Assembly: GCA_945862285.1 (NCBI GenBank)
Contig: CAMAYN010000014.1
Location: 1-36,640, forward strand
Reading direction: 5' to 3'
Origin: Akkermansia muciniphila
GTDB taxonomy: Bacteria; Verrucomicrobiota; Verrucomicrobiia; Verrucomicrobiales; Akkermansiaceae
DNA: 36,640 nt
Position 1 is the stretch's first letter, and each line of letters begins with the position of its first letter. The notes below the pieces were generated by a model that saw only the letters and a list, made by a program, of their open reading frames with translations, was not told where the DNA came from and did no database searches. Below, piece after piece: positions 4,784-28,472 of this stretch. A program made the position numbers and the translations under genes.

Positions 4784-7700
4784 TTATGGTATGACCACTT
4801 TCAGACGTAAAAAACTCGTCGGTTCGCTGGCGGGCAAGGTGAAGCTGATTGTGTCCTGCCCTTGCTGTGGTTCATCAGATAAAATGCTGATGTTGGGCTC
4901 GGCAGCTTCTTGCGTGAGAGGTATGAAATAGGAATTGGGCCATGATTGTAAATCGGGCGAGGTCTCGATGAAGAGTGTCGTTGCGGGATCGATGGATGAG
5001 CGATTTCTGATAAAGCGATAAAGGTAGTTATCTCCTATTTTCGAGAGCGTAGGGAGGAGATGTCGATCATGGGTAACGTGGCTACCACCGAGAACATATT
5101 CTACGCCATTTGGCACACCATCGGCATCAGCATCGAGATTCGCTAGTTGATTGTTCGCATGGATGGCTGACCAATTTGCATAGCTCGCAAGGGGCGTAGC
5201 AACGAGGTAACCGTTAGAATTCAAGGAAAATGTGCCATAGCCTTCTGCGGAAATGCTTGCAAGCTGGGTGGCGCTCAAGCCGGAGGCATTTGTGCCAAAG
5301 CGGATGGATTGACCAGAGATCCATTTGCCCTTGATGACGAGCGTGGTAGCAGTGGGCGAGGTGGGAAAATCTGTCCAATTGATCGTGCTGGAGTCCGCGA
5401 ATTGTAGGGTGGCATCTTGCGAGAGATCAAGCGTGGCATCACCCGTGAGATCCAGAGTACCGAGCTGTTGGGAAAATCCGCCGACGGCAAGTGTAGCATC
5501 GCCAAGTGTAAGCGGTGTGGCAGGTAGGGCATTTGTTTTAGCTAACGATAAGGTTCCGGCAAGGATGGAGGTGGTGCCGGTGTAGCTGTGGGCGTTTCGG
5601 AAAATCTGTGTGCCGAGGCCCGATTTAATGACCGACATTCCCGCAGCTCCATTCGTGATGATGCCCGAGTAATCACATGTGACCTCCGCGGCAGGATTGA
5701 GAGTAAGCTGAGTGAGGTTAGAATATCCTCCAGAGGTGGTTGTGAAAATGGTGGCAAGATTTTTTTCACCGATAAGACCGCCAAGGGTAAGAACGGTTGC
5801 TGTGGTTTTAAACCCGTTTGTGGCATCGCCAACAATCGATTCGGTGGTTTCGATGGCACTGTTTTGCACGGCGAGAGAATGGGTGAGTTCCAGAATGCCT
5901 TCGGTAACGGATGTAAAGCCGCTGTGGGTATTTGCGGCGGCAAGAGTTTGTGTGCCACTACCTGTTTTATTGATGCCGAGATCGTTGCCGCTAATGCTGC
6001 CAGAGTAGGTGAAATTGGTGGAATTATTGATCGTGAGAGTTGCCGCTTGTGAGGCGGTATTGAATATGCGTTGATTGCGCAATGTGAGTCCTGTGGTGTT
6101 TGTTAGGCCTGCGATTGTTTGGTCAAAGCCATTGAGATCAAAGCTAACAGTGCGGCCTGAACCAGCACCATTTCCTCCATGCAATGTAAGAATTGTCGTG
6201 GTGGGTAGAGTATCGGCTTGAAGTGCCCTCACAGTTAAGGTGACGCCACTATTTGCGGTGGTGATCGTGGTCGTGCCGTCGTAGGTATTTTGTTCTCCAA
6301 GAAGGATGGTTTGGAGATTGTTATTACTATTATTGAGCGTGCTAAAAGTTACATTGCCCGTACCACTGATGAGCCCGCTGTATCGCATGGTGCCACGTGC
6401 ATTGGCATTCAGGCCGAAGGAAAATGTTAAGTCGTTCGATAAGACAATTGGCACATAGGAGGTAAACTCATTGAGCTGTGAAGATACAGCAGCAGCACCC
6501 GTAATTTCGATCGCTGTTGCTTCTCCTAAGGCATTCGCATGAGCAAGATCGACGCGGCCTTGATGGATTGAGAGCAGACCAGAGAAAGTAGTATTCGCGC
6601 CTGAGAGCGTGAGTAGGCTCGAATTTTCTTTGCGTAAGGTTCCGCTGCCACGTAGTTCCCCAGAGATATTTAGTGCGTTAGAGCTGTTGTATCGGAAGGT
6701 AGAATTGCTACCTATCTCGATACTGTTAGAAAAAATTCCTGCACTCAACGAGCTTGTGCCGCCGATTTCGAAGGAGCCAGAATTGGCAGGTAGCGTGATA
6801 TTTCCCGTGAAGGTATTCGCGGCTGTAAGCAATGCGGTGCCAGCGCCCTCTTTGGTAATGGGATAAGCGCCAGAAATCACACCACCGATGGTAAGTGTTC
6901 GACTGGGTGCAACTCGCCAAACTTGAGCGTCTGCTAAGGCGATGGCGCAGTTCAGGGTCAAACCCACTGTAGCAGAATCCATATTAATATCGGTGGCATT
7001 TGCTCCAAGTGTCAGAGTATTTCCTGAGTTGATCGTAACATTTCCTGTGGGATTATTGATCGTTATGCCAGCCCATGTTGCATTGGCACCAAGGACTGTG
7101 GTATTTGCCGTAGTGACTGTATTATTCCACACTGCGGTGGTAGTGGCGTTTGGTCGTGTGCCATTTACCCAGCTTGTGGTTAGATTCAGATTGTTAGCAT
7201 TATTCGCCTTCACAGCAAAAGGAAGAGTTGTAATGAGCAGGTTGAGCACATTACCTGAAACAGTAAGGCTGGCAGATGAGCCGTCTGGTAATCCATTTGT
7301 GCCACTCGAATTGAGTATGACTAATGACGTTGGCAACGTCCCTGTCGTACTCGCCCAAGCCATCAATGGATAGGTACCAGTTGTTAGAGCTTGATCGATG
7401 ATCACGCGCACGTGTGGCGCGGCAGAGAAAGTTGCTGTTCCCGTGATGGTCATGGGAGCGACGGCACTTGGGAGATTATTACCGAAATGAAATTCTAGAA
7501 ATCCAGCAGCGGCGGTGGTGACTGATGCGCAAGTCCAGGTCTTCGTGTTATCAGTAATGGCCACGCCGAGGGCCGCTGTCGTGCTGGTGACTGTGATTGG
7601 TGAATTTGTAAGACTGCCACCCGTCACGCCCTGTAGTATGCCGTCCGCAATCGTCGTAGTGCCGGTCATGGTATGAGAACCAGACAAAGTTTGCCGCGCT

Positions 7701-10700
7701 GGCCCGGTTTTGATCAAGTTGAGATTCGAGCCGTTGATTCCACCTGCGAAACTCGCATCTTTAGCGGCGTTGATGGTGAAAGTGGCGGGTGTGGTAGAAC
7801 TATTTATCACACGTTGACTGCGCAGACTGGTAGCAACGCTAGACAGCCCAGCAACGGTTTGGCTGAATCCATTTACATCAAAAGTATTGCTACGTCCTGA
7901 ACCGCCTCCCGCACTGCCATCAATGGAAAGAACGGTCGTGATGGGTAAGGCATTATTGATCCCGATTCTCACAGACAAATTCGCATTACTTCCTGTCGGA
8001 TGGAGTCTTGTATTACCAGTGTAGGTGCTAGCCGCATTGAGCAGTATCGTTTGTTGCGAATTATTGGCCACCGTTGATGTAGCGCCAAAGATTATTGAAC
8101 CAGTTCCTGATAGAGGGGAGTTGAGAGATACGCTAGAAGTTGTTGATCCACTACCGAAGTCAGGTGCTTGAATGGTAGGCGTATCAATGATGGTAACGGG
8201 GGCATTACAGATGACGTTTTGTATCGTAGTGCGTAAAATCGAAGTCCCTGAAAGTGTGAGCGAAGTTGCCGCACTGATGGCATTTGAGTTTGCTAAGTTT
8301 AGTGTTCCCTCATTGTGAATGATCGTGCCCGTGAATGATGGGTTGGCGGCACTGAGAGTCAATGTACTATCGCTGTTCGATTTTTGTAGTTGGCCACTAC
8401 CAGAAATAGCGCCAGAGAAGTTCTGTGTGGTAGAACTGGAATAGTGCAACATGGCGTTCGTACCTAGTGAGATCGGCGCGTTATAATTCCCTGCGCCTAG
8501 ACTACCGCCGTTTGCAATCTGAAGTTCCCCGCCGTTTGCAGCGATTGTCGTTGACCCTGTGTAGGAATGATTTCCTGTTAGTATTTGCGTCCCCGCTCCT
8601 ATTTTTGTTAGATTCATTGCTGCGCTACCATCGCTGATGTCACCGGCGTAGTTGTGTATCTGGTTCGTTGCTAGATTAAGGGTGAGATCTGATAAAGCAG
8701 ATCGACCATTGTTCGTAGTAGTAAATAATGAAGCAAAATTTTTCTCTCCTGAGAGTCCTCCGATTGTGAGCGTAGGAACGGTAATGCGAAGACCATCTGT
8801 CGCACTGCCAACGAGAGAAAGATCAGAATCCAAGACGCTATGTTGTAAGGCGAGTGGGTTTTCCAGTGATAAAATTCCGGCTACGATTTTTGTAGAGCCT
8901 GAGTAGGTATTTTGTCCAGCGAGGGCGAGGGTGAAATTTGCGCTATCTTTTGTTAGATTTTTACCAATGCCTGAGATGATTCCAGAGATCGTTAGGAGTG
9001 AACCACTGGAGGTGCCAGAGGTACGAACGGTAAGGTTATCGTTAAGAATGATGTTGGTATTACTTGCGATGGAAACATTACCAGTGCCGCCAGCGGTACG
9101 CGTGATGAAGGATGTTGCGTTATCAAATTGATCAAATGTGATCGAGCCGTTTGTTCCGCGTTGTAAGGTAGTGGTTTGATTTCCCGAACTATCACCAAGG
9201 GCGAGTTCTCCGAGGGTTACAGGGATGTCGATGTTGACTGTTTGGTTGCCAGTGATGTTAGAATTGATTCTGGCAACATATCCCATACTGTTAGGGATGG
9301 TGGCAGGATTCCAGTTTGTAGCTGTATTCCAACTATAACTTCCCGCCGCGGTGGGTATCCACATGCTGCCGACTGGTGGTGGCGCGGGTGTGGCAATGAC
9401 TGCTGTATTTGAAGTAACGACGGGAGTGACACCTGAAGAAAATCGTGCTTGGGCTTGGGAATTTGTGCCGCTCACTGTTGCTAAGCTATTACCTCGGTAA
9501 GCGATGGATGAACCATCACCAAGGTAGAGAGTAATGCTGTCATCACCATTACTCGATATGATGCCAAAGCGTCCTTTAAAAGTGATTCCAAATGCGGAAT
9601 CAGTATAGGTTTCGGTGGGATTAGGATTCGAAAAAACGTATTGCACTTGGCTGCGGGAGCCTGTTGTGCTTTCGACTTTTACCCCACATACTACATTGCC
9701 ACGAGTAAGAGTGGTGACGTTGCGAATCGTGTCTGTGCCATTGCCTAGTTGTGGCTCGTAAACAGTGGCAAAGGCTTTTTCCCACGCTTCACCGATTTGG
9801 CGGATCACGAGTGTGGGAGCAACGCGAGAGCTGTAAGGACTGGGCGCATCGACGATGGCTGGGCTATCGACTTTTGCATACTCGCGATTTGCCACGGCGG
9901 GCATGTGCACATTCATGTAACGCGGAGTGCCTGCAACCGTGGCAGAGAATTTCGCCCGAAAGGCCTGATTGGTAGGACTGCTTACGCGAGTGTTCGTGAA
10001 ATAGCGCCAGCCAGGTTGATCGTAAGTATCGCCGATGTCATTGGCAAAACGATTTGGCTGGCTCACAGTAGTAAGCGGCGAACCATCGGCCAGAAGTTCT
10101 ACTGCGGTATCGCCGAAATTTCGATAGATGTAATCATGGTATTGATTTGTGACATTTCCATTGAGCGTCGTTGCCGTGCGATTGGTAACGGTGGATCTGG
10201 TACGGAAAAAATCGACATAGTATCCTGAATTCGGCGATGTCCTAACGATTGCCATGGTGCGCTGTTGGGTGCCTTCGGCCAATGCGCCGCGATCATCAGC
10301 AAACGAGCTACAGGTAAAGGAATAGTTCTCGGATACTGGTGCAACATCCACTTTTGGTTCCATAGAAACGGTCTGTACTGTATTGATGGAAAGGTCTTGC
10401 CAGCCACCTTCCCCTCGCGAGCCACCATTCACGATGACGGTATTATTCGCGGCGAAGAGACGGTAGTATTTTTCATGATCTTCATCGCCATACGATGTTC
10501 TGCCAGATTTTGCACCCATAACATGACCCGCGCCGTAGATCTCCATACTCATGCCGCTGGCGTGGCTATGGATGTGAGCTGCTCCGCCCACAAAGCACAT
10601 AAGGCCAAAGTTGGGATCTTTCGTCGGGGATTCGTTACGTTGCAGTGCTATGCCCGCATACGGCAAGGTATCTGTGCGGGGAAGTTCAGGGAAAACTGAT

Positions 10701-12517
10701 GGTTCGGGAATGACGGCTGCTTGCCAAAGAAGCTGAACCGGATCATTGAGCATGGATAATCGATCATACTCATGGAGTGTCGCACGATTGTATTCGCCTG
10801 CGGCTTGACCACCGTTGATCAGCGAGCCGAGCAGCGTCGCGAGCTTGGTATCACCAATGGCTACGGCGTGTTGATAAACGACTTCATATTGAAAATACGG
10901 TTGCCCACTCGAATCTCGATGGCCATCGCCGAAGCTAACTTGTTGGCCATTCGGGTAACGAAGCTCGCTAATCCGAGGCAAGCTTTTTGGGAAGTTCGGG
11001 TATTTATCAAGTAGGTTTAGGCTCGGGTTAAATCGATCCAACTGCACGAGGTGAGTGGAGCGGATGGAACCGACCGCGCCGGCATACTGCAGTGACTCTG
11101 GCCAAATATTTCCTTCGCTTTGGTAATGACGATAATCATACTCGAGTGACGCCTGACGCGATGTTCCCGTTGTGAGATAGACTTCAATCGCGGTATTGCG
11201 TTCGGTTGTGTTATCGAGGGCCAGTAAATTATTCAGCATGGCTGTTGCCATGAGAGCAGACCAGTTTGAGTCTCGTTGCCCGTGATCACGTGTGAGTTGA
11301 TAATATTTCCGAAAAACGGTCTGGGCATTGGTGAAGTTAAAATTGACGTTGGTCGCTTTTTTCACATCGTAAACTTGGTTTGTTAGAATCCATGGATGTA
11401 GGAGGTCATAAATGATGGGGAGCTGAACGGCATTGACCCGGGCCTCTTTGAGCAGATCGGTTTGGAAGATCCAGCCGCCGTTACCCGTACTTGTAGAGGC
11501 AGCAACTGGCACAAGCGTGGTAATGGTATTATGTAAAATATCCGCTGCGCAACGGGCATAGGCTTCATTTCCTGTTAGATAAAACAGAACAGCGCAATCT
11601 TGGGCATCGTTGAGCATTTGTTCGAGAATGAAACGTACCGTGCTTTCTGAATAGGCGGGTATGGTTTTCAATCGTGGAGTCGCGTCCGTCCAGTTGATGA
11701 CGGGAAGTTGACGTAAAAATGTATTACGATTCGCTTGATGGCTGGCGAAATCATTCGCAACGCGCGCGACGATTCCATTGTAAACAGATGTGGCCCATGG
11801 ATTACCGGCAATTTTGGCCAGAATATTCGCTTTTTCCGAATCTCTTACCCAAATAAACGGGCGAACATTGCCGCTGGGATTATTGTAGATGATACGCGGT
11901 GCGTTAGCGGAGGCGTTTGCTGATGTGATGGAAAAACTCGCCGCAACGGAGGGCGCGGAGTCGGGGCTCAGACGAATAAAAACGTATTGTCCCGCACCTG
12001 CGCCATTGGCGTATTGGGTGTTGAGGTAATTCCTCAAGGATGTTCCAGAGCTGTTTGTATAAATCGGACCATTGGCCGATGAACTGGTCAAAAAATCGTT
12101 CTGCAAGAGTGTCGCATCGCTGGGATCGACGGTCGTAGTTTGACCATAATAATCGGTGGCCAAGACAGTCGCCGATGCTCTACGGCCTAAGCCATAGAGA
12201 TCGACGTTTGGTGGTGTCGATGTTTTTGATGCGACCAATACGCGCAACGATGCTGATGAAAATGGATTGGAAACGGCTCCGAAGTTAGGTAGTTGAAAAA
12301 CCAACACGGGAGAACTTCCAGGGAGAGGGCTACCCGTAGAGCCTGCTACCAAGGTGGTATTTGATGATGATGCAAGGGTGCTATTCGATCGACTATCGGC
12401 ATCCTGAGATAACCCTTGCATGCTAGCGGAATCCGCAGAGCTGAGAAAAACGATTTGCCAAATCATGAACAAAATCAGCAATGAACTGCGGGAAAAATCG
12501 CTGATTTTGATATTCAT
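4784..12517 (-). CDS. Giant secreted heparinase II/III-like protein with autotransporter-associated beta-strand repeats
   Basis: A 2577-residue protein. Residues 1-33 form a Sec signal peptide. Residues 70-205 look like a beta-sandwich of DNRLRE/CBM96 type. Residues 215-600 are helical and resemble the alpha-toroid of alginate and heparin lyases. Residues 610-900 match a heparinase II/III-like beta-sandwich, including the His-rich HIHSHASG block near 648-655 and SYGDEDHEKYYR just after. From about 1060 to 2390 there are at least eight autotransporter-associated beta-strand repeats of the form LTKxGxGTxxLxGxxxYTGxTxI. The C-terminal 150 residues carry a DADADGVPNGVEYVLGG calcium-loop-like motif and end in FLRLKV, a tail common on secreted Verrucomicrobiota proteins. 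No autotransporter barrel is present. The protein is probably exported and cleaves uronate-containing polysaccharide by beta-elimination. The substrate cannot be told from sequence. Confidence 0.85.
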   Translation of the reverse strand: MNIKISDFSRSSLLILFMIWQIVFLSSADSASMQGLSQDADSRSNSTLASSSNTTLVAGSTGSPLPGSSPVLVFQLPNFGAVSNPFSSASLRVLVASKTSTPPNVDLYGLGRRASATVLATDYYGQTTTVDPSDATLLQNDFLTSSSANGPIYTNSSGTSLRNYLNTQYANGAGAGQYVFIRLSPDSAPSVAASFSITSANASANAPRIIYNNPSGNVRPFIWVRDSEKANILAKIAGNPWATSVYNGIVARVANDFASHQANRNTFLRQLPVINWTDATPRLKTIPAYSESTVRFILEQMLNDAQDCAVLFYLTGNEAYARCAADILHNTITTLVPVAASTSTGNGGWIFQTDLLKEARVNAVQLPIIYDLLHPWILTNQVYDVKKATNVNFNFTNAQTVFRKYYQLTRDHGQRDSNWSALMATAMLNNLLALDNTTERNTAIEVYLTTGTSRQASLEYDYRHYQSEGNIWPESLQYAGAVGSIRSTHLVQLDRFNPSLNLLDKYPNFPKSLPRISELRYPNGQQVSFGDGHRDSSGQPYFQYEVVYQHAVAIGDTKLATLLGSLINGGQAAGEYNRATLHEYDRLSMLNDPVQLLWQAAVIPEPSVFPELPRTDTLPYAGIALQRNESPTKDPNFGLMCFVGGAAHIHSHASGMSMEIYGAGHVMGAKSGRTSYGDEDHEKYYRLFAANNTVIVNGGSRGEGGWQDLSINTVQTVSMEPKVDVAPVSENYSFTCSSFADDRGALAEGTQQRTMAIVRTSPNSGYYVDFFRTRSTVTNRTATTLNGNVTNQYHDYIYRNFGDTAVELLADGSPLTTVSQPNRFANDIGDTYDQPGWRYFTNTRVSSPTNQAFRAKFSATVAGTPRYMNVHMPAVANREYAKVDSPAIVDAPSPYSSRVAPTLVIRQIGEAWEKAFATVYEPQLGNGTDTIRNVTTLTRGNVVCGVKVESTTGSRSQVQYVFSNPNPTETYTDSAFGITFKGRFGIISSNGDDSITLYLGDGSSIAYRGNSLATVSGTNSQAQARFSSGVTPVVTSNTAVIATPAPPPVGSMWIPTAAGSYSWNTATNWNPATIPNSMGYVARINSNITGNQTVNIDIPVTLGELALGDSSGNQTTTLQRGTNGSITFDQFDNATSFITRTAGGTGNVSIASNTNIILNDNLTVRTSGTSSGSLLTISGIISGIGKNLTKDSANFTLALAGQNTYSGSTKIVAGILSLENPLALQHSVLDSDLSLVGSATDGLRITVPTLTIGGLSGEKNFASLFTTTNNGRSALSDLTLNLATNQIHNYAGDISDGSAAMNLTKIGAGTQILTGNHSYTGSTTIAANGGELQIANGGSLGAGNYNAPISLGTNAMLHYSSSTTQNFSGAISGSGQLQKSNSDSTLTLSAANPSFTGTIIHNEGTLNLANSNAISAATSLTLSGTSILRTTIQNVICNAPVTIIDTPTIQAPDFGSGSTTSSVSLNSPLSGTGSIIFGATSTVANNSQQTILLNAASTYTGNTRLHPTGSNANLSVRIGINNALPITTVLSIDGSAGGGSGRSNTFDVNGFSQTVAGLSSVATSLRSQRVINSSTTPATFTINAAKDASFAGGINGSNLNLIKTGPARQTLSGSHTMTGTTTIADGILQGVTGGSLTNSPITVTSTTAALGVAITDNTKTWTCASVTTAAAGFLEFHFGNNLPSAVAPMTITGTATFSAAPHVRVIIDQALTTGTYPLMAWASTTGTLPTSLVILNSSGTNGLPDGSSASLTVSGNVLNLLITTLPFAVKANNANNLNLTTSWVNGTRPNATTTAVWNNTVTTANTTVLGANATWAGITINNPTGNVTINSGNTLTLGANATDINMDSATVGLTLNCAIALADAQVWRVAPSRTLTIGGVISGAYPITKEGAGTALLTAANTFTGNITLPANSGSFEIGGTSSLSAGIFSNSIEIGSNSTFRYNSSNALNISGELRGSGTLRKENSSLLTLSGANTTFSGLLSIHQGRVDLAHANALGEATAIEITGAAAVSSQLNEFTSYVPIVLSNDLTFSFGLNANARGTMRYSGLISGTGNVTFSTLNNSNNNLQTILLGEQNTYDGTTTITTANSGVTLTVRALQADTLPTTTILTLHGGNGAGSGRTVSFDLNGFDQTIAGLTNTTGLTLRNQRIFNTASQAATLTINNSTNFTYSGSISGNDLGINKTGSGTQTLAAANTHSGFTSVTEGILELTHSLAVQNSAIETTESIVGDATNGFKTTATVLTLGGLIGEKNLATIFTTTSGGYSNLTQLTLNPAAEVTCDYSGIITNGAAGMSVIKSGLGTQIFRNAHSYTGTTSILAGTLSLAKTNALPATPLTLGDATLAVGGFSQQLGTLDLTGDATLDLSQDATLQFADSSTINWTDFPTSPTATTLVIKGKWISGQSIRFGTNASGLSATQLASISAEGYGTFSLNSNGYLVATPLASYANWSAIHANNQLANLDADADGVPNGVEYVLGGSHVTHDRHLLPTLSKIGDNYLYRFIRNRSSIDPATTLFIETSPDLQSWPNSYFIPLTQEAAEPNISILSDEPQQGQDTISFTLPASEPTSFLRLKVVIP

Positions 12518-17225: not shown

Positions 17226-17241
17226 TGTTCCACGTGGAACA
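17226..17241. other. parS site 1 (ParB-binding palindrome)
   Basis: The perfect 16-bp palindrome TGTTCCACGTGGAACA matches the ParB consensus TGTTNCACGTGAAACA except for one A-to-G change that makes it fully symmetric, as in the Pseudomonas-type parS. It overlaps the end of the cdd-mnmG gap. ParB loading here would seed chromosome partitioning and SMC recruitment, and such sites cluster near replication origins. Confidence 0.85.
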
Positions 17242-17268: not shown

Positions 17269-19161
17269 ATGTTTCTTTATCCAAAATCATACGACGTCAT
17301 GGTCATCGGAGCTGGTCACGCAGGTGTCGAAGCCGCTCTCGCGGCCGCACGGCTTGGTGCCTCAGTAGCCATGATCACCCAAAATATCGATAGTATCGGG
17401 CAAATGAGCTGTAATCCAGCGATCGGTGGACTCGCCAAAGGACATATGGTTCGAGAAATCGATGCCCTCGGAGGTGCCATGGCACTCAATACCGATGCGA
17501 CAGCGATTCAATGGCGCATGCTCAATACTAGTCGTGGCCCCAGTGCCCGTGCACCACGTGCCCAGTGCGATAAAAAAGCCTACCAATTTCGCATGAAATG
17601 GCTGCTTGAAAGTACACCCAACCTCGAACTTCACCAAGGAAACGTTGCTAAGCTTCTCGTGAAAAATGATCAGATTTACGGAATCACAACTTCTCTAGGA
17701 TTAGAATTTCATGCAAAATCCGTTATTCTCAGTGCCGGTACTTTTATGCGCGGACTGATGCATGTGGGGCTACAAAATGAAAAAGGTGGTAGAATGGGCG
17801 ATGCGATATCGACTGTCAGCGATAGTCTGCGTGAGTTAGGCTTTACTGTAGAACGATTTAAAACCGGCACACCATGCCGACTTAATGCCCGCTCACTAAA
17901 TTTATCCGTATGCGACATTCAATGTGGCGATACGCCCCCGCCCGAATTTAGCTATCGCAGAAATACCATTCACCGAGATAAAGACGAGATCTTTACGCTC
18001 AACTCTTGGGCTGATCCAGAGTTCCACGTGGAACAATTACCCTGCTACATCACCTATACGAATCAAAAAACCCACGATATTATCAGAAATAATCTCGATA
18101 AATCACCCATGTATTGTGGTGTAATTGAGGGAGTGGGTCCAAGGTATTGTCCATCAATCGAGGATAAAGTCGTTCGCTTTGCCGAAAAAGAACGTCATCA
18201 AATTTTCCTCGAACCTGAAGGTCGCCATACGCGCGAATATTATGTAAATGGCGTATCCACTTCACTCCCCTACGATATACAACTTGCTTTCCTGCGCAGC
18301 ATTCCCGGACTCGAGCAATGCGAAATCCTTCGCCCTGGATACGCTGTTGAATACGATTACTGCCCACCCACACAGCTATACCCCACGCTGGAAACCAAAC
18401 GAATATCGGGACTTTACTTTGCTGGGCAGATCAACGGCACATCAGGATACGAAGAAGCAGCGGCACAAGGACTCATTGCCGGCACCAATGCCGCACGTAA
18501 AGCCGCAAATCAACCAGAATTTTTGCTTGGCAGAAACGAAGCCTACATCGGCGTCATGATCGATGATCTCGTCACCAAAGGCTGCACAGAGCCGTATCGC
18601 ATGTTTACCAGCCGTGCGGAATATCGCTTGCTCCTAAGACAAGACAATGCTGACATTCGCCTTACCCCAAAAGCCGCAGTAATTGGCCTCGTATCTCAAG
18701 ATCGCATCGACGATGTTCAGCAAAAAATTGCCCAACTTCATAAAGCCGACCATTTCCTCCGAAAAACAAATCACGAAGGAGTAAAACTGAATGTTTGGCT
18801 GAAACGTATCGAAAGTGAATGGCAAAATTTACCAGATACGATGAAAAAGGAATTCCCTGAATCACTCTGGCCTATCATCGAGACCGATCATAAGTATGAA
18901 GGTCATCTCGCGCGGCAGCAGACACAAATTGATCGGCTTAGCAAAGCAGAACAGAGAAAAATACCTGCGGATCTTGATTATTCTAGCATTACGAGTATGA
19001 AAACAGAGGCCAAAGTCAGGCTGAGTGCCATCCGTCCTCAAACGATTGGGCAAGCTTCTCGCATTAGCGGAATTACCCCAGCTGACTTAGCACTCCTAAC
19101 CATTTGGCTAGAAAAACAATCGCGACGTTCCGATTCCGTAAGTTCATCAGCTCAAGTGTAG
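17269..19161 (+). CDS. mnmG: tRNA uridine-5-carboxymethylaminomethyl modification enzyme MnmG (GidA)
   Basis: A 630-residue protein, the usual MnmG length. Working with MnmE, this FAD enzyme installs the carboxymethylaminomethyl group at the wobble uridine (U34) of certain tRNAs, using methylenetetrahydrofolate and NADH. The N-terminal Rossmann motif [19 protein letters not shown] binds FAD. Further signatures are [30 protein letters not shown], the [14 protein letters not shown]...QIFLEPEG block, [16 protein letters not shown] and the [18 protein letters not shown] region. ATG 17269 gives the normal N-terminus. The second parS site lies inside the gene and is read as FHVEQ, where relatives such as the E. 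coli protein have a variable segment. mnmG often sits with rsmG, parA and parB near the origin, but none of those follow here. Confidence 0.96.
18020..18035. other. parS site 2, inside mnmG
   Basis: AGTTCCACGTGGAACA, identical to site 1 except for the first base and sharing its 14-bp palindromic core. It lies about 0.8 kb from site 1 within the mnmG reading frame, where the core is read as Phe-His-Val-Glu. Two such sites so close are very unlikely by chance. Confidence 0.8.
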
Positions 19162-20434: not shown

Positions 20435-20566
20435 ATGAAAAAAACACTTACCTATACCGCTATTTTGATGCTGATTTCATTTTCATTTTCATCCTGTGGC
20501 ATTGCGCGAGGTCTCGGAAATACCGTAGGCCGTACTCTACAAAGTGTAACACGATTAGCTCGGTGA
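20435..20566 (+). CDS. Mini-lipoprotein, 43 residues
   Basis: ATG 20435 opens MKKTLTYTAILMLISFSFSSCGIARG, a short basic N-terminus, a hydrophobic core and a lipobox-like FSSC at about residue 21. The mature peptide of about 23 residues is small, basic and glycine-rich (GLGNTVGRTLQSVTRLAR). It is probably lipid-anchored after signal peptidase II processing and resembles entericidin-like small lipoproteins in size only. An in-frame ATG at 20420 would add five residues. It comes 18 bp after the SDR gene on the same strand and converges with tsaE. Function unknown. Confidence 0.65.
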   Translation: MKKTLTYTAILMLISFSFSSCGIARGLGNTVGRTLQSVTRLAR

Positions 20567-20591
20567 AAAATTAATAAATTTATATAAATTA

Positions 20592-21002
20592 TCAGTGCTT
20601 GTTAATGTCTACAATACGTTGATTTCCAAGAATATTTATAGTGATGATAGTAAGATGATCGAGCCAAAGTTGAGGAAAAAGATCAGCCCACTCAACGAGA
20701 AGAATGCCTTCATCAGAATATTCATCCCAACCGAAGTCTAGAATTTCATTCATTGTTTTAATTCGATGCCAATCGAAATGAAACAATGGCACACGCCCAC
20801 TACGATACTCCTGAACCAAGGAAAATGTAGGACTTGTAACTTCTTCTTGAATTCCTAAGCCACTAGCAAACCCCTTAGAAAAATGGGTTTTCCCGGCACC
20901 CATTGTTCCAATTAATGCGACCATTCCTAATCCATTACATGATTCACCAAAGGAAAATCCTAGTTGAAACATTTCTTCAACAGTCGATACCTTATATTGC
21001 AT
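20592..21002 (-). CDS. tsaE: tRNA threonylcarbamoyladenosine biosynthesis ATPase TsaE
   Basis: A 136-residue protein of normal TsaE length. The Walker A motif is GTMGAGKT (32-39), followed by the family blocks TSPTFSLVQEY, FHFDWHRI and the late EWAD motif. TsaE binds and hydrolyses ATP and is needed with TsaB and TsaD to make the N6-threonylcarbamoyl group on A37 of tRNAs that read ANN codons. It stands alone on the minus strand between two plus-strand groups and converges with the mini-lipoprotein gene across an AT-rich 25-bp gap. A weak TTGTCG / TAACTT pair about 16 bp apart ends 6 bp before the ATG, again suggesting a short or absent leader. Confidence 0.9.
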   Translation of the reverse strand: MQYKVSTVEEMFQLGFSFGESCNGLGMVALIGTMGAGKTHFSKGFASGLGIQEEVTSPTFSLVQEYRSGRVPLFHFDWHRIKTMNEILDFGWDEYSDEGILLVEWADLFPQLWLDHLTIITINILGNQRIVDINKH

Positions 21003-21074
21003 ACGATCAAGTTACAAAAATCAATCACTCCGACAAAGGAAAAAAGAATCTCATTTTTTTCAAAAAAAATCTTG

Positions 21075-21094
21075 TCACATCAGTAGAGATGTGA
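21075..21094. promoter_or_regulatory. Perfect 7-bp stem hairpin upstream of rplU
   Basis: TCACATC and GATGTGA are separated by a 6-nt loop, about 80 bp before the rplU start. It could be a leader element for the L21-L27 mRNA or an operator. On the minus strand it is followed by a T-rich stretch, so a terminator for minus-strand transcription is also possible, but no gene would feed it. Confidence 0.3.
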
Positions 21095-21175
21095 TGAACT
21101 TCGCGCCCCGCACGACACAGCATCCGGCTTTGTCAGCAAACAACAGCGGTAGGAAACGCAATCACAACTTCCAAT

Positions 21176-21487
21176 ATGGGCTACGCAGTCATCAAAACCG
21201 GCGGTAAACAATACCGCGTTCAAGCAGGCGATAAGATCGATGTTGAAAAACTCGCTCTCGAAATCGGCCAAGAAATTAGCTTCGACGTTCTTCTCAAAGG
21301 AGAAGGCGCAGCCGTCGAACTAGGATCCCCCACCATCCCAGGTGCATCCGTCACCGCTAAAGTCATTGATCAACATCGTGGCGCGAAAGGTGTGGCATTC
21401 AAATTCAAACGCCGTAAAGGTTTCCACAAAAAAATCGGTTTCCGCCGTCATCTTACTAAGCTAGAAATTCTCAACGTTCCCGCGTAA
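21176..21487 (+). CDS. rplU: 50S ribosomal protein L21
   Basis: A 103-residue protein opening MGYAVIKTGGKQYRVQAGD, the classic L21 start, and ending in the KKIGFRRHLTKLEILNV region that contacts 23S rRNA. L21 binds 23S rRNA domains and helps assemble the large subunit. The gene is followed by rpmA after 27 bp, the usual bacterial pairing. obg, which often follows, is absent. The start has no Shine-Dalgarno sequence (CACAACTTCCAAT precedes ATG) despite the high expression expected. Confidence 0.97.
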   Translation: MGYAVIKTGGKQYRVQAGDKIDVEKLALEIGQEISFDVLLKGEGAAVELGSPTIPGASVTAKVIDQHRGAKGVAFKFKRRKGFHKKIGFRRHLTKLEILNVPA

Positions 21488-21514
21488 TCATCTAACAATT
21501 AACTCTACTAACTC

Positions 21515-21763
21515 ATGGCCCATAAAAAAGGACAAGGTTCCGTAAAAAACGGACGCGACTCACGCAGCAAACGCCTCGGTGTCAAAAAATTCGGCAGCCA
21601 GGCTGTCATTGCTGGTAACATCATCATTCGTCAACGCGGCACACGCTGGACTCCCGGTCTTAATGTTGGCATTGGCAAAGATCACACCATCTTCGCTCTT
21701 ACCGATGGCCGCGTGCTCTTCGATAAAGGCGGTAGCCGTGTAAATGTTGTCACCGCAAACTAA
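21515..21763 (+). CDS. rpmA: 50S ribosomal protein L27
   Basis: An 82-residue protein with the [23 protein letters not shown]-terminus, whose flexible end reaches the peptidyl transferase centre, and the [21 protein letters not shown] core. It begins directly at MAHKKG, so the N-terminal extension that some Firmicutes process is absent. It forms an operon with rplU and is followed 22 bp later by a strong terminator. Confidence 0.97.
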
Positions 21764-21785
21764 GCGATTCACTTTTTCCATTCTT

Positions 21786-21822
21786 AACCCGTCAGTTCTC
21801 CTATGAACTCGACGGGTTTTTT
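21786..21822 (+). terminator. Rho-independent terminator of rplU-rpmA
   Basis: The arms AACCCGTC and GACGGGTT, with inner arms AGTTC and GAACT, form a long hairpin followed directly by a run of T. It ends the ribosomal operon and marks the left border of the DnaA-box-rich region. Confidence 0.85.
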
Positions 21823-21862
21823 ATTACCAAACTTCATGTGCAACAAAACATTTCTACAAAAG

Positions 21863-22098
21863 TCATTCACATGTTGAATAAGTACGTATTAAAAAACATA
21901 AAGAATATCATCATCATAAGCATGTGAATAACCTACTTAAAATCCTGTTTCACTTCGCTTTATCATGTGTTCCACCGATCGAATAACTTGTGAGAGAAGT
22001 AGCAATATTTCGTGAATCTTTCTTGATCGGAACATGCTCGTTCACAGTATTCACATCAACTCATCAACTCATTCACACAAATGGCTAGTTTATTCACA
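21863..22098. other. Cluster of DnaA-box-like motifs; candidate oriC or DnaA-control region
   Basis: The gene-free stretch after rpmA contains two exact TTATNCACA boxes: TTATTCACA at 22090-22098 on plus, and the same on minus at 21931-21923. One-mismatch boxes occur at 21863-21871, 22047-22055 and 22069-22077, and a two-mismatch box at 22038-22046. The last four are direct repeats at 9, 22 and 21 bp spacing, which puts three of them on the same helical face. The interval 21886-21920 is very AT-rich and could unwind. Apart from these motifs I see nothing else in the stretch. It may be a replication origin, or a regulated promoter for the gene that follows. Confidence 0.5.
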
Positions 22099-22143
22099 AA
22101 TCGATACGTTCGAGTGAAATCTCAAAATTGGTCCAACACACTT

Positions 22144-22539
22144 ATGGAAAGCACCGGAATCGAAACGAATCACCTGATCCCCTTGTTTGTTTATGGAACT
22201 TTACGTTCGGGAGGAAGTAACCATTGGCGAATGGCTAAGGCTAGCTTTATTTCATCCGCGATCACTCATGGTAGTCTCTACTGCATCGACTGGTATCCTG
22301 GCCTTGTTATCGATCAATTGTCATCGATCGTTTACGGAGAACTCTATTATTGCGATGAACTTTTGCTGGAAAAACTCGATGATTTTGAAGGTGATATCGA
22401 ATATGAACGGCAAAAACGATCCGTAAAAACGCCTGATGGCAAAGAAATAGAAGCTTTCATCTGGATTTATAAAAAGCCTATTGATACATTTACAAAAATC
22501 ACTTCGGGCGATTGGTTACTGCACTTAAATCGGAAATAA
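22144..22539 (+). CDS. Gamma-glutamylcyclotransferase-like (AIG2/YtfP family) protein
   Basis: A 131-residue protein from ATG 22144 (MESTGIETN). The signature FVYGTLRSGGSNHWRM lies at about 15-30, and the LLEKLDDFEGDIEYERQ block carries the Glu that is catalytic in this fold. Family members cyclise gamma-glutamyl amines or peptides to 5-oxoproline, or act on related adducts. Bacterial YtfP-type members have uncertain substrates. The frame is open to an ATG at 22081, but that extension overlaps the DnaA-box repeats and adds residues not typical of the family, so I use the later start. Confidence 0.8.
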   Translation: MESTGIETNHLIPLFVYGTLRSGGSNHWRMAKASFISSAITHGSLYCIDWYPGLVIDQLSSIVYGELYYCDELLLEKLDDFEGDIEYERQKRSVKTPDGKEIEAFIWIYKKPIDTFTKITSGDWLLHLNRK

Positions 22540-22688
22540 TTGATTGTGAAGTGAGTATAGGCGAAAAATCACCCAAGATGAACGGAAGCAAAATGTGATC
22601 ATTTTTTTCCTTGCTCATTATCCGGAAAAAACTATTATTGGTCAGTCCTTTTACCTGTAATTTGACTATCATCCTCGAACTTCCTCTT

Positions 22689-22802
22689 ATGGCACGTCTT
22701 ACCATTATCGCATTTCTTTTCTCACTCCTTGCTTCCAGTTGCTGCACTAGCGAAACAATCGTTGCCCCATCGAAGCCAACGTATATCGAGCCAACGAAGT
22801 AA
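22689..22802 (+). CDS. Mini-lipoprotein A of a tandem pair, 37 residues
   Basis: ATG 22689 begins MARLTIIAFLFSLLASSCCTS: a short basic N-terminus, a hydrophobic core and a lipobox-like ASSC around residue 18. Only about 20 residues remain after it, rich in Pro, Thr and Glu. It is probably lipid-anchored. A frame starting at 22611 exists, but the signal peptide itself starts at 22689. The next gene encodes a related peptide 47 bp downstream. Function unknown. Confidence 0.6.
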   Translation: MARLTIIAFLFSLLASSCCTSETIVAPSKPTYIEPTK

Positions 22803-22849
22803 ACTGGAATTTCCGATCTCCCAATAAAACAGTAAACACGCAAAAAACT

Positions 22850-23017
22850 ATGTCACGCACTCTATCCGTAATCGCCGTAGCACTATTGGCCATTGTAGCA
22901 AGTTCATGCTGCTGCACCAGTGATGTTAAGCCACCAAAATTGAAAAAGCTTCCAAAATTCATGGAATTTCCTGATGCACCACCAGAAGTGGAAGTTGATT
23001 TAGAGAGTTCCAAATAA
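22850..23017 (+). CDS. Mini-lipoprotein B of a tandem pair, 55 residues
   Basis: ATG 22850 begins MSRTLSVIAVALLAIVASSC and continues with CCTSDVKPPKLKKL. It shares the M-(A/S)-R start, hydrophobic core and SSCC(C)TS lipobox region with the preceding gene, so the two look like diverged duplicates. The mature part is rich in Pro, Lys and Glu and ends in an acidic tail. It is followed by a strong terminator 26 bp after the stop, suggesting a two-gene transcript. It was missed by length-based gene finding because it is so short. Function unknown. Confidence 0.65.
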   Translation: MSRTLSVIAVALLAIVASSCCCTSDVKPPKLKKLPKFMEFPDAPPEVEVDLESSK

Positions 23018-23043
23018 TTTCATTGAATTGATCCAAAAATTAC

Positions 23044-23087
23044 TTGCTCTGCTTTGCCAATCTGGCCGTAAGCAGAGCAATTTTTTT
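23044..23087 (+). terminator. Rho-independent terminator after the mini-lipoprotein pair
   Basis: Arms TTGCTCTGCTT and AAGCAGAGCAA enclose a 15-nt loop that itself contains a GCCA/TGGC stem. Seven T follow. It ends the mini-lipoprotein transcript and lies upstream of recQ, which shows that the recQ frame extension into it is not coding. Confidence 0.9.
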
Positions 23088-23127
23088 GTCTCGTAACCAA
23101 TTTTTGAAAAAATTCGACTCATTCCCT

Positions 23128-25059
<1,932 letters not shown>

Positions 25060-27025: not shown

Positions 27026-27490
27026 TTAAAAAGGAATTTCGTCTTCGTCTTCGAAGTGAGTATCCGCAGGGCTACCGCCATAGGAGTCACCACCTTGAGG
27101 AGCACTGGGGCGCTGTGTAGCAGCGGAAGCTGGGGCAGAACCTCCGGTGTTGCCTTTGCCATCTGGCATAAATTGCATGTTTTCAGCTACAATTCTTAGC
27201 TTGCTGCGCTTCTGCCCTGTGGCTTTGTCGTCCCATGTGTCAAGGGTTAGTCGGCCTTCTATAAAAACACTACGGCCTTTCGTGAGATACTGTTGTGCGA
27301 GTTCGGCTTGCCGTCCCCACAAGGTAATATCGACAAATGTAACCTCCTCTTGACGTTGATTTTGATCATTGGTCCAAGTGCGTTTTACAGCGAGTCCGAT
27401 TTCGGCTACAGCACTTCCCTTAGGAGTATAACGAAGCTCGGGGTCTCGCGTGAGGTTTCCCAGAAGCATAACTTTATTCAAACTAGCCAT
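27026..27490 (-). CDS. ssb: Single-stranded DNA-binding protein
   Basis: A 154-residue protein. Residues 1-110 form the OB fold: MASLNKVMLLGNLTRDPELRY, TFVDITLWGRQAELAQQYLTKG, VFIEGRL. A Gly/Ser/Ala-rich linker follows, then the acidic tip DEDEIPF, which recruits partners such as RecQ, PriA and exonuclease I. It coats single-stranded DNA during replication and repair. It follows rpsF by 68 bp in the common pth-rpsF-ssb order. rpsR and rplI, which often come next, are absent here. Confidence 0.96.
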   Translation of the reverse strand: MASLNKVMLLGNLTRDPELRYTPKGSAVAEIGLAVKRTWTNDQNQRQEEVTFVDITLWGRQAELAQQYLTKGRSVFIEGRLTLDTWDDKATGQKRSKLRIVAENMQFMPDGKGNTGGSAPASAATQRPSAPQGGDSYGGSPADTHFEDEDEIPF

Positions 27491-27558
27491 ATCAGTGATG
27501 ATTTACGGAAATAATGATCAAATTGGTGAAATGACATTTCACCAAGCATAGAAAAAAA

Positions 27559-27846
27559 TTAGTTAGCGCGTTGGAAATACTGCATGTGCACATGAGTATT
27601 CAAGCGAAGACGTCCTTTGATTTTTGCGATGCTAGCAGGCTCTGCAGTGAGAGAAAAATTTAGGTAGTGGCCAGACTCAAGATGGTTCGATGTATAAGCG
27701 AACTTACGGCGTCCCATATCGAGAACGTCGGCAACTTTGGCGCCTTCGGCTTCCATTTCCTTGGTTACTGTGCCGATGAGATCTTCTACACCGCCGTCTG
27801 CGCCTTTGGTGTTAAGAATGATGATGCCTTCATATTTTCTGCTCAT
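27559..27846 (-). CDS. rpsF: 30S ribosomal protein S6
   Basis: A 95-residue protein, MSRKYEGIIILNTKGADGGVEDLIGTV, with the central DMGRRKFAYTSNHLESGHYLNFSL and the C-terminal LRLNTHVHMQYFQRAN. S6 pairs with S18 on the 30S platform and binds 16S rRNA. It is encoded 53 bp after pth. There is no acidic glutamylated tail. Its S18 partner is not encoded nearby. Confidence 0.95.
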   Translation of the reverse strand: MSRKYEGIIILNTKGADGGVEDLIGTVTKEMEAEGAKVADVLDMGRRKFAYTSNHLESGHYLNFSLTAEPASIAKIKGRLRLNTHVHMQYFQRAN

Positions 27847-27899
27847 AATGACTGAAGAGTTATGCTGTTGATGTATTCGTTAGTGGTGGGATCACGAGG

Positions 27900-28472
27900 C
27901 TAATTGGGAGCCGCATTGTAGAGACAAGCAGCTTCATTTATACCTCGGGAGAGACAATCATGCACGGCATTTGCCGCCATGGCAAGCATGTTTTTCAAAG
28001 TTTCTTGCTCGTTCTCTGCAAATTTGCCTAAAACATGCCCTGTCATCGAATTTGCTTGGGCTTCGCCAATACCCAATTTGAGGCGGGGAAACTCATCGCT
28101 ACCGAGGTGTTCGATCATTGATTTCACGCCATTATGCCCTCCGGCGCTGCCATTTGCACGCAAACGCAAGCGACCGAGCGCTAGGCTGACATCGTCATAA
28201 ACAACGAGACATTGTTGGGGCGACCATTTGAAATATCGTAAAATTTTCCCTACCGAGCGCCCACTCAGATTCATAAATGTCTGAGGTTTGGCAAGTAATA
28301 CGGATGATTCTGGCCATTTTGCCATCTGACATTCCCATTTCGGCAGCGTTTCAAAGTCACAGCGCAGCCTCGCGGCGAGTACGTCAAGTACCATAAACCC
28401 CACATTGTGCCGAGTAGCCGCGTAGTCTCTTCCTGGGTTTCCTAGTCCAACGATCAGTTTGATTTCACTCAT
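27900..28472 (-). CDS. pth: Peptidyl-tRNA hydrolase
   Basis: A 190-residue protein of normal length. It shows IVGLGNPGRDYAATRHNVGF with the catalytic His in RHN, the KPQTFMNLSG block with a key Asn, and VVYDDVSLALGRLRLRANGSAGGHNGVKSM with the catalytic-dyad Asp. It frees tRNA from peptidyl-tRNA that drops off ribosomes and is normally essential. Its ATG overlaps the pssA stop (ATGA at 28472-28469), so the two are translationally coupled, and rpsF and ssb follow. Confidence 0.96.
   Translation of the reverse strand: MSEIKLIVGLGNPGRDYAATRHNVGFMVLDVLAARLRCDFETLPKWECQMAKWPESSVLLAKPQTFMNLSGRSVGKILRYFKWSPQQCLVVYDDVSLALGRLRLRANGSAGGHNGVKSMIEHLGSDEFPRLKLGIGEAQANSMTGHVLGKFAENEQETLKNMLAMAANAVHDCLSRGINEAACLYNAAPN

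Follow-up and report, generated by a model that had tools for sequence, protein, structure and literature searches.

A conserved DnaA-box module downstream of rpmA is the probable chromosomal replication origin of an Akkermansiaceae bacterium

The intergenic DNA between rpmA and a GGACT gene is very probably the chromosomal origin of replication (oriC) of this Akkermansiaceae bacterium. The reading is based on the sequence of the locus, on its conservation, on the presence of about one strong match per genome, on linkage to mnmG, on the position of parS sites in eight genomes, on low duplex stability, and on a flip in GC skew in the complete genome G039. The initial annotation of the window, by which we mean the whole 36,640-nt stretch analysed (contig C14 of a 3.65-Mb draft genome in 279 contigs), had proposed a candidate origin at this place, and the conserved core, the mnmG linkage, the low stability and the G039 skew flip lend that proposal strong support.

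The locus contains a cluster of DnaA boxes in intergenic DNA, as expected of an oriC. A scan of the window finds the exact box, TTATNCACA, only at 21923-21931 on the − strand (box 2) and at 22090-22098 on the + strand (box 5), both written here as TTATTCACA. Three boxes with one mismatch complete the cluster, all on the + strand: box 1 at 21863-21871 and box 4 at 22069-22077, both TCATTCACA, and box 3 at 22047-22055, GTATTCACA. The span from the first to the last box is 236 bp. Once a weak two-mismatch box read from the sequence at 22038-22046 (+ strand, TCGTTCACA) is counted, the tandem steps are 9, 22 and 21 bp. The motif TTCACA occurs within 21823-22143 five times on the + strand and once on the − strand. 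When the whole window was simulated 500 times with a Markov-1 model, a 236-bp stretch with at least five boxes of at most one mismatch turned up somewhere in 1 simulation; when the 321-bp stretch was simulated with its own composition, five boxes were obtained in 4 of 5000 simulations and at least six TTCACA motifs in 0 of 5000. It is the clustering alone that is unusual, because the total of near-boxes in the whole window is not raised (24 with at most one mismatch observed versus 30.2 expected, slightly below chance). These results bear out the initial annotation, which had listed two exact, three one-mismatch and one weaker box within 236 bp, the tandem steps, six TTCACA motifs on the two strands in excess of chance, and no further exact box in the window.

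To the left of the cluster is a gene that we take to be rpmA (ribosomal protein L27; 21515-21763, + strand), consistent with its reading frame and with relatives, and 3′ of it a terminator-like hairpin with a T run can be read from the sequence at 21788-21822 (+ strand), in agreement with the strong terminator that had been described as bounding the cluster. To the right is a GGACT (gamma-glutamyl cyclotransferase-like) gene, identified by PF06094 and by relatives, with a predicted extent of 22144-22539 (+ strand). The cluster had been described as lying in gene-free DNA, which is a reasonable reading up to 22143 rather than a proven one: the list of open reading frames starts the GGACT gene at 22081, but most GGACT homologues align only from residue ∼27-35 (a few from 8-15), and there is an in-frame ATG at 22144. 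Genes for ssb and peptidyl-tRNA hydrolase are found on the − strand at 27026-28472, 5-6 kb to the right of the candidate origin.

Part of the cluster belongs to a conserved core module of 137 bp (21860-21996, + strand), defined by an alignment (A1) and by matches to a sequence-only profile model (R1). Alignment A1 joins 18 genomes from six genera in 137 columns with a single gap and a mean column identity of 70%. In the window's genus, all 10 genomes (our own and 9/9 others) carry the core downstream of rpmA with a common layout: box 1 (+) is followed by AT-rich DNA and a triplet tract, then by box 2 (−), 60 bp away from box 1, by a pair of GTTCCAC-like motifs and an AATAAC..TGTGA motif, and lastly by more boxes. 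The spacing of the core is fixed in these genomes, while individual boxes vary, some by two or more mismatches. Loss of boxes in relatives that keep the flanking genes had been named beforehand as a finding that would speak against an origin; the whole module is kept in all nine of the other genomes, but single boxes, above all box 3, decay in some. Column conservation was assessed in 44 rows, which are the loci kept from both profile searches, best matches only. The best-conserved columns are those of box 1, a tract of WTC triplets at 21908-21918, box 2, AAA at 21939-21941, GTTCC at 21947, GTTCCAC at 21969, AATAA at 21982 and box 4 at 22069. The majority letter is present in 22-40 of the 44 rows per column in box 1, and in 37-44 rows in seven columns of box 4 (26 and 29 in the remaining two). 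Conservation is poor in box 3 and weak in box 5.

The core also supplies the second feature expected of an oriC, an adjacent AT-rich unwinding element (DUE) of low stability. The candidate DUE, recognised by its low-stability 50-mers, extends over 21872-21907, and the 35-bp stretch at 21877-21911 is 83% AT, matching the very AT-rich stretch that had been reported. Of the window's 36,591 50-mers, only 10 have a lower stability than the one at 21871-21920. Across 42 of the 44 loci, two being left out as shorter than 2.5 kb, the corresponding 50-mer ranks among the least stable 1% of the locus in 39. Box 1 faces this unstable DNA from one side, and box 2 faces it from the opposite side.

Adjoining box 2 is a phased tract of WTC triplets (21908-21918, + strand), in which T at 21911, 21914 and 21917 and C at 21915 are present in 44/44 rows. 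Three or more consecutive WTC triplets, on the strand running 3′→5′ away from box 2, are found in 37 of the 44 modules, compared to 0.1% in shuffles. The arrangement is like that of the basal unwinding system of Bacillus subtilis, in which a DnaA box at the border of an AT-rich stretch is accompanied by a triplet-phased tract (PMC8287927, PMC10316083). Unlike in B. subtilis, however, the tract reads 5′-WTC-3′ on the strand where 3′-GAT-5′ is expected, and strict DnaA-trios (3′-GAT/AAT/GAA-5′; at least three consecutive, starting within 16 bp of the box) are found in 0/44 modules from box 1 and 0/44 from box 2. We therefore rejected a basal unwinding system with strict DnaA-trios. With a relaxed 3′-NAN-5′ pattern, runs of at least three occur from box 1 in 32/44 modules versus 58% of shuffles, which is somewhat above, and from box 2 in 15/44 versus 36%, which is not above. 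The tract also differs from the oriC of Thermotoga maritima, where the triplet is TAG and where both box sequence and layout are different.

Beyond box 2 the core holds two further motifs of one kind. The first, GTTYCAC (here GTTTCAC; 21947-21953, + strand), is half-parS-like and has G in 43 and T in 44 and 44 of the 44 rows at 21947-21949; the second, GTTCCAC (21969-21975, + strand), follows 22 bp downstream, with TTCC at 21970-21973 in 44/44. They are followed by a weakly DnaA-box-like motif, AATAACNTGTGAA (21982-21994, − strand), seen both in the alignment and in the 44-row columns. The GTTCCAC motif could be a half-site for ParB, a weak DnaA site or an element of another kind. GTTCCAC is half of the parS of the family, and its two copies 22 bp apart are what one would cite for a second centromere-like element, at which ParB would bind the half-parS motifs and the DnaA boxes would be secondary. 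We give this explanation hardly any weight: the conserved columns include DnaA boxes and the DUE tract, which a centromere would presumably not need, and full parS sites are present 4 kb away.

For the locus as an oriC, we infer DnaA binding, unwinding, the choice of strand and any role of GTTCCAC as follows. DnaA would bind the boxes at 21863-22098. Between box 1 and box 2, which point towards one another, lie ∼50 bp of very unstable DNA, and this DNA would be opened by DnaA that assembles from box 2 and from the boxes to the right. On the phased WTC tract, DnaA may hold the T-rich strand with one molecule to each triplet, which would allow helicase to load. The two parS sites 4 kb off, one inside mnmG and one next to it, would mark the same region for segregation. 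A more far-reaching proposal, possible but doubtful, is that the class has an origin design of its own, in which boxes face inward across the DUE, DnaA reads a WTC code at the strand and polarity of GAT trios elsewhere, ParB on the half-parS motifs in the core couples segregation to initiation, and the core moves as a unit with fixed spacing.

The genes on either side of the core differ between genera. The box-cluster scan covered 20 mnmG loci from other genera of the family, with two clusters listed per locus, and the core spacings were recognised upstream of mnmG in eight genomes from five other genera, antiparallel to mnmG in four of the eight. For the 12 loci missed by eye, the profile search found matches at E<1e-10 in ten genomes, some of them outside the fetched stretch, and weak ones in the remaining two (G023 and G025). 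The module is flanked by a DUF4184 protein in G027, by a short-chain dehydrogenase and a 2-oxoacid dehydrogenase E2 in G033 and G021, by a PLP decarboxylase in G030, by a BamB-like propeller and RibD in G017 and G029, by DUF6580 and RibD in G024, and and in G039 by a LamB porin and, with small ORFs intervening, by MutS; the Pfam search gave no match for the flanking proteins of G015, nor for one side of G027 and G030. Because the flanking genes differ in this manner, rpmA and GGACT are not part of the system; they are the setting in the window's genus only, and the core keeps its internal layout while its neighbours change. The same comparison bears on the suggestion that the boxes serve as a promoter through which DnaA regulates the GGACT gene, or as the leader of a flanking operon, as their position directly upstream of GGACT in the window's genus might indicate. 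That suggestion is scarcely credible, since the layout is kept beside unrelated genes in other genera, a GGACT match at E≤0.001 is lacking in 20 of 57 relatives, and no Rfam family matches 20500-23200 at E≤1. A gene for rpmA was found in 56 of the 57 genomes, our own genome being among the 57.

The profile model locates the probable origin module in most genomes of the family. In the 57 relatives, R1 gave 45 matches at E≤0.1, and our own genome has one strong match, the next best having E values of 0.03 (overlapping) and 0.09. The family search covered 178 genomes, 56 in genus g3 and 122 outside it, and 136 of the 178 match R1 at E≤0.01. Outside g3 the matches are strong (E<1e-5 in 117 of 122 genomes), G023 and G025 match weakly, and three genomes (G013, G133 and G197) have no match at E≤0.01. 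An mnmG gene is listed for 112 of the 117 genomes with strong matches: it is on the same contig as the module in 98 (median distance 6.3 kb, maximum 45 kb), at no more than 20 kb in 95 of these 98, and on another contig in 14. The 101 matches not used for model building comprise 82 on the contig of mnmG, 79 of them within 20 kb, 14 on a different contig and 5 without a listed mnmG. As expected of an oriC, there is one module per chromosome: each of six single-contig genomes of the family outside g3 (G027, G114, G126, G136, G145 and G153) has one match, at most 10 kb from mnmG, and our own genome has the one strong match. There are two exceptions, G183, with two equal matches on two contigs (listed contamination 6%), and G039, with two weak copies 0.5 kb apart.

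In genus g3, 17 of 56 genomes match R1, all weakly, with a best E value of 2.6e-6. We fetched five of these 17 matches, three of them chosen for proximity to mnmG. Four (G082, G076, G083 and G090) have 5-8 near-boxes in ∼250 bp or less, together with portions of that half of the core which comprises box 2, the WTC tract and the AT-rich DNA. In the first three, mnmG lies ∼10-27 kb from the match and shares its contig; in G090 it is on another contig. The fifth, G061, is probably noise, as there is no box cluster there. In the order outside the family, 13 of 22 genomes match, some weakly, with nine of the matches on the contig of mnmG at a distance of at most 20 kb and four on other contigs. In a sample of the class, 56 of 237 genomes match at E≤0.001, of which 32, from 14 families, are outside the order. 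For these 32, mnmG is on the same contig within 20 kb in 13, at 72 and 82 kb in two, 3.4 Mb away in G335 and on other contigs in 16. The few and weak matches in g3, the 56 of 237 at class level and the mnmG genes that are on another contig or, in G335, 3.4 Mb off count against the module as the origin. The absence of a match is weak evidence in these searches, because the stricter filters of the larger searches lose weak matches. Conservation in relatives, a check that the initial annotation had named, was found by alignment, by family profile search and by mnmG linkage, and is as expected of an oriC; at the class level presence is wider but patchy. In family f22 the module is away from mnmG in 8/8 genomes with a match (on another contig in seven, and at 3.4 Mb in G335:C2), and here the position of the landmark mnmG may have moved relative to the module.

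In the window, mnmG (gidA; 17269-19161, + strand, PF01134) is the landmark gene to which the module is linked, and a scan for parS-like sites finds one site, TGTTCCACGTGGAACA, at 17226-17241 and a second, AGTTCCACGTGGAACA, inside mnmG at 18020-18035. The pair is 3.8-4.6 kb from the module, in line with the ∼4 kb first given. In all eight genomes tested, parS sites with at most one mismatch, two in six genomes and three in two, are inside mnmG or within 3 kb of it and nowhere else.

The module is not located beside dnaA, as an oriC of the dnaA-dnaN type would be. The initial annotation had remarked that dnaA is not in the window, and the gene is indeed found on a different contig, C13, of 38 kb. 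There are no DnaA boxes with at most one mismatch in the 3.5 kb around it. The rest of that contig has 16 such boxes, including four in ∼310 bp at ∼7.5 kb from dnaA, none of them exact. These four boxes are a point against the module as the origin, but with a box-free 3.5 kb and a cluster 7.5 kb away that has no exact box, an origin linked to dnaA is not supported. The distance between module and dnaA is 2.0 Mb in G027 and 497 kb in G039. The DnaA protein of our own genome (L101:16068-17480) has 470 amino acids and the box-recognition motif GGRDHGTVIHAC (DHGTV); the motif at that place in E. coli DnaA is DHTTV.

In E. coli, oriC is near gidA and not at dnaA, and its unstable DNA is on the side faced by the nearest box. 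The module described here is like this gidA-mioC type of oriC in being near mnmG/gidA and away from dnaA, but differs from it in that the module is on either side of mnmG, 1-45 kb off in the family, with neighbours that depend on the genus, and in that a second inward-facing box closes the DUE at its far side. Box 2, the tract and the AT-rich DNA together have the geometry of the unwinding side in E. coli and in B. subtilis. Origins away from dnaA and near gidA are already known; for example, the predicted Yersinia origin is reported to be between gidA and mioC, as in E. coli (PMC10225481), and bacterial origin layout is described as diverse (PMC8287927).

With respect to Akkermansia itself, the origin of A. 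muciniphila YL44 has been placed by parS, skew and coverage, and the origins of 12 species were found not always to coincide with dnaA, as stated in the part of that report at our disposal (PMC10197239). Our candidate is like that of YL44 in being at the parS region, but the same part of the report describes no origin sequence, DnaA boxes or module (PMC10197239). In a further report, A. muciniphila genomes were rotated to dnaA as the origin (PMC6624636). A search of the literature on Verrucomicrobia, Akkermansia and gidA/mnmG origins, judged by titles and the starts of abstracts, yielded no description of a Verrucomicrobial oriC sequence, which is a weak absence; DoriC may hold automatic predictions. 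The 137-bp core locates the probable origin in draft genomes from most of the family and from other families of the class, in which dnaA would be the wrong guide to the origin. The true position of the origin would help methods that derive growth rate from coverage, and the conserved triplet tract would provide a direct test case for the opening of DNA by DnaA.

A flip in GC skew coincides with the module in the complete genome of G039, an order-level relative. In this genome, the orientation-corrected skew is −0.29 at dnaA (at base 7 of the record) and −0.27 at 175 kb; its sign changes to positive from the 480-kb to the 525-kb sample, and the best fits are at 0.41-0.52 Mb. The sample preceding dnaA (3.25 Mb) is negative too, so that dnaA has negative samples on both sides. 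One sample, at 3.00 Mb, is positive within an otherwise negative arm, against the trend. At the 1-kb level the skew ranges from −0.20 to +0.01 over 480-497 kb and from +0.08 to +0.25 over 498-514 kb, which places the flip at 497-498 kb; the module copies, both weak matches (E values of 0.002 and 0.012), start at 497,138 and 497,640. The core is present there twice in tandem, ∼0.5 kb apart (G039:C1:497138-497740; L259:17138-17740). The flip, at the module at the 1-kb level, also bears on the idea that the boxes form a DnaA-titrating or DnaA-reactivating locus near the origin and not the origin itself. Loci of the datA and DARS kind are also clusters of DnaA boxes, which act on the supply of DnaA and do not open, and boxes alone cannot distinguish them from an oriC. 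Nevertheless, we consider such a locus very improbable here, given the G039 flip, the inclusion in the module of some of the least stable DNA of the locus, and the lack of a second strong R1 match in its own genome.

Our argument from skew, for the module as the origin, rests on G039, because the other genomes give noisy, small or opposite signals. The initial annotation had proposed that a skew minimum far from the module would count against it; the flip in G039 is at the module, the complete genome of G027 is ambiguous, the pooled genus contigs give a small positive step, and the window itself gives a negative one. For G027, a family-level relative, skew was measured in 41 stretches, none longer than 20 kb (40 at spaced positions and one at mnmG); the skew is weak and noisy, with the twelve best fits spread over 1.8-3.85 Mb and the best two, at 3.74 and 3.42 Mb, 0.4-0.7 Mb from the module at 3.03 Mb, and we set it aside as too weak to locate an origin. 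After correction for orientation, the step is negative in the window (−0.104, 26 ORFs) and in G005 (−0.010) but positive in the remaining five contigs of the genus, where it ranges from 0.014 to 0.079; pooling the seven contigs within 100 kb gives +0.045 (interval 0.019 to 0.073, with related ORFs treated as independent). Raw GC skew was rejected as evidence for an origin in draft contigs, in which gene orientation dominates and the corrected step is small. The raw skew of the window has positive values at 4-14 kb and largely negative ones from 17 kb on, the opposite of that expected on the + strand for an origin at 22 kb. The strong positive local skew at 4-14 kb coincides with an open reading frame at 4784-12517 (− strand) for a 2577-amino-acid autotransporter-like protein with passenger-associated transport repeats.
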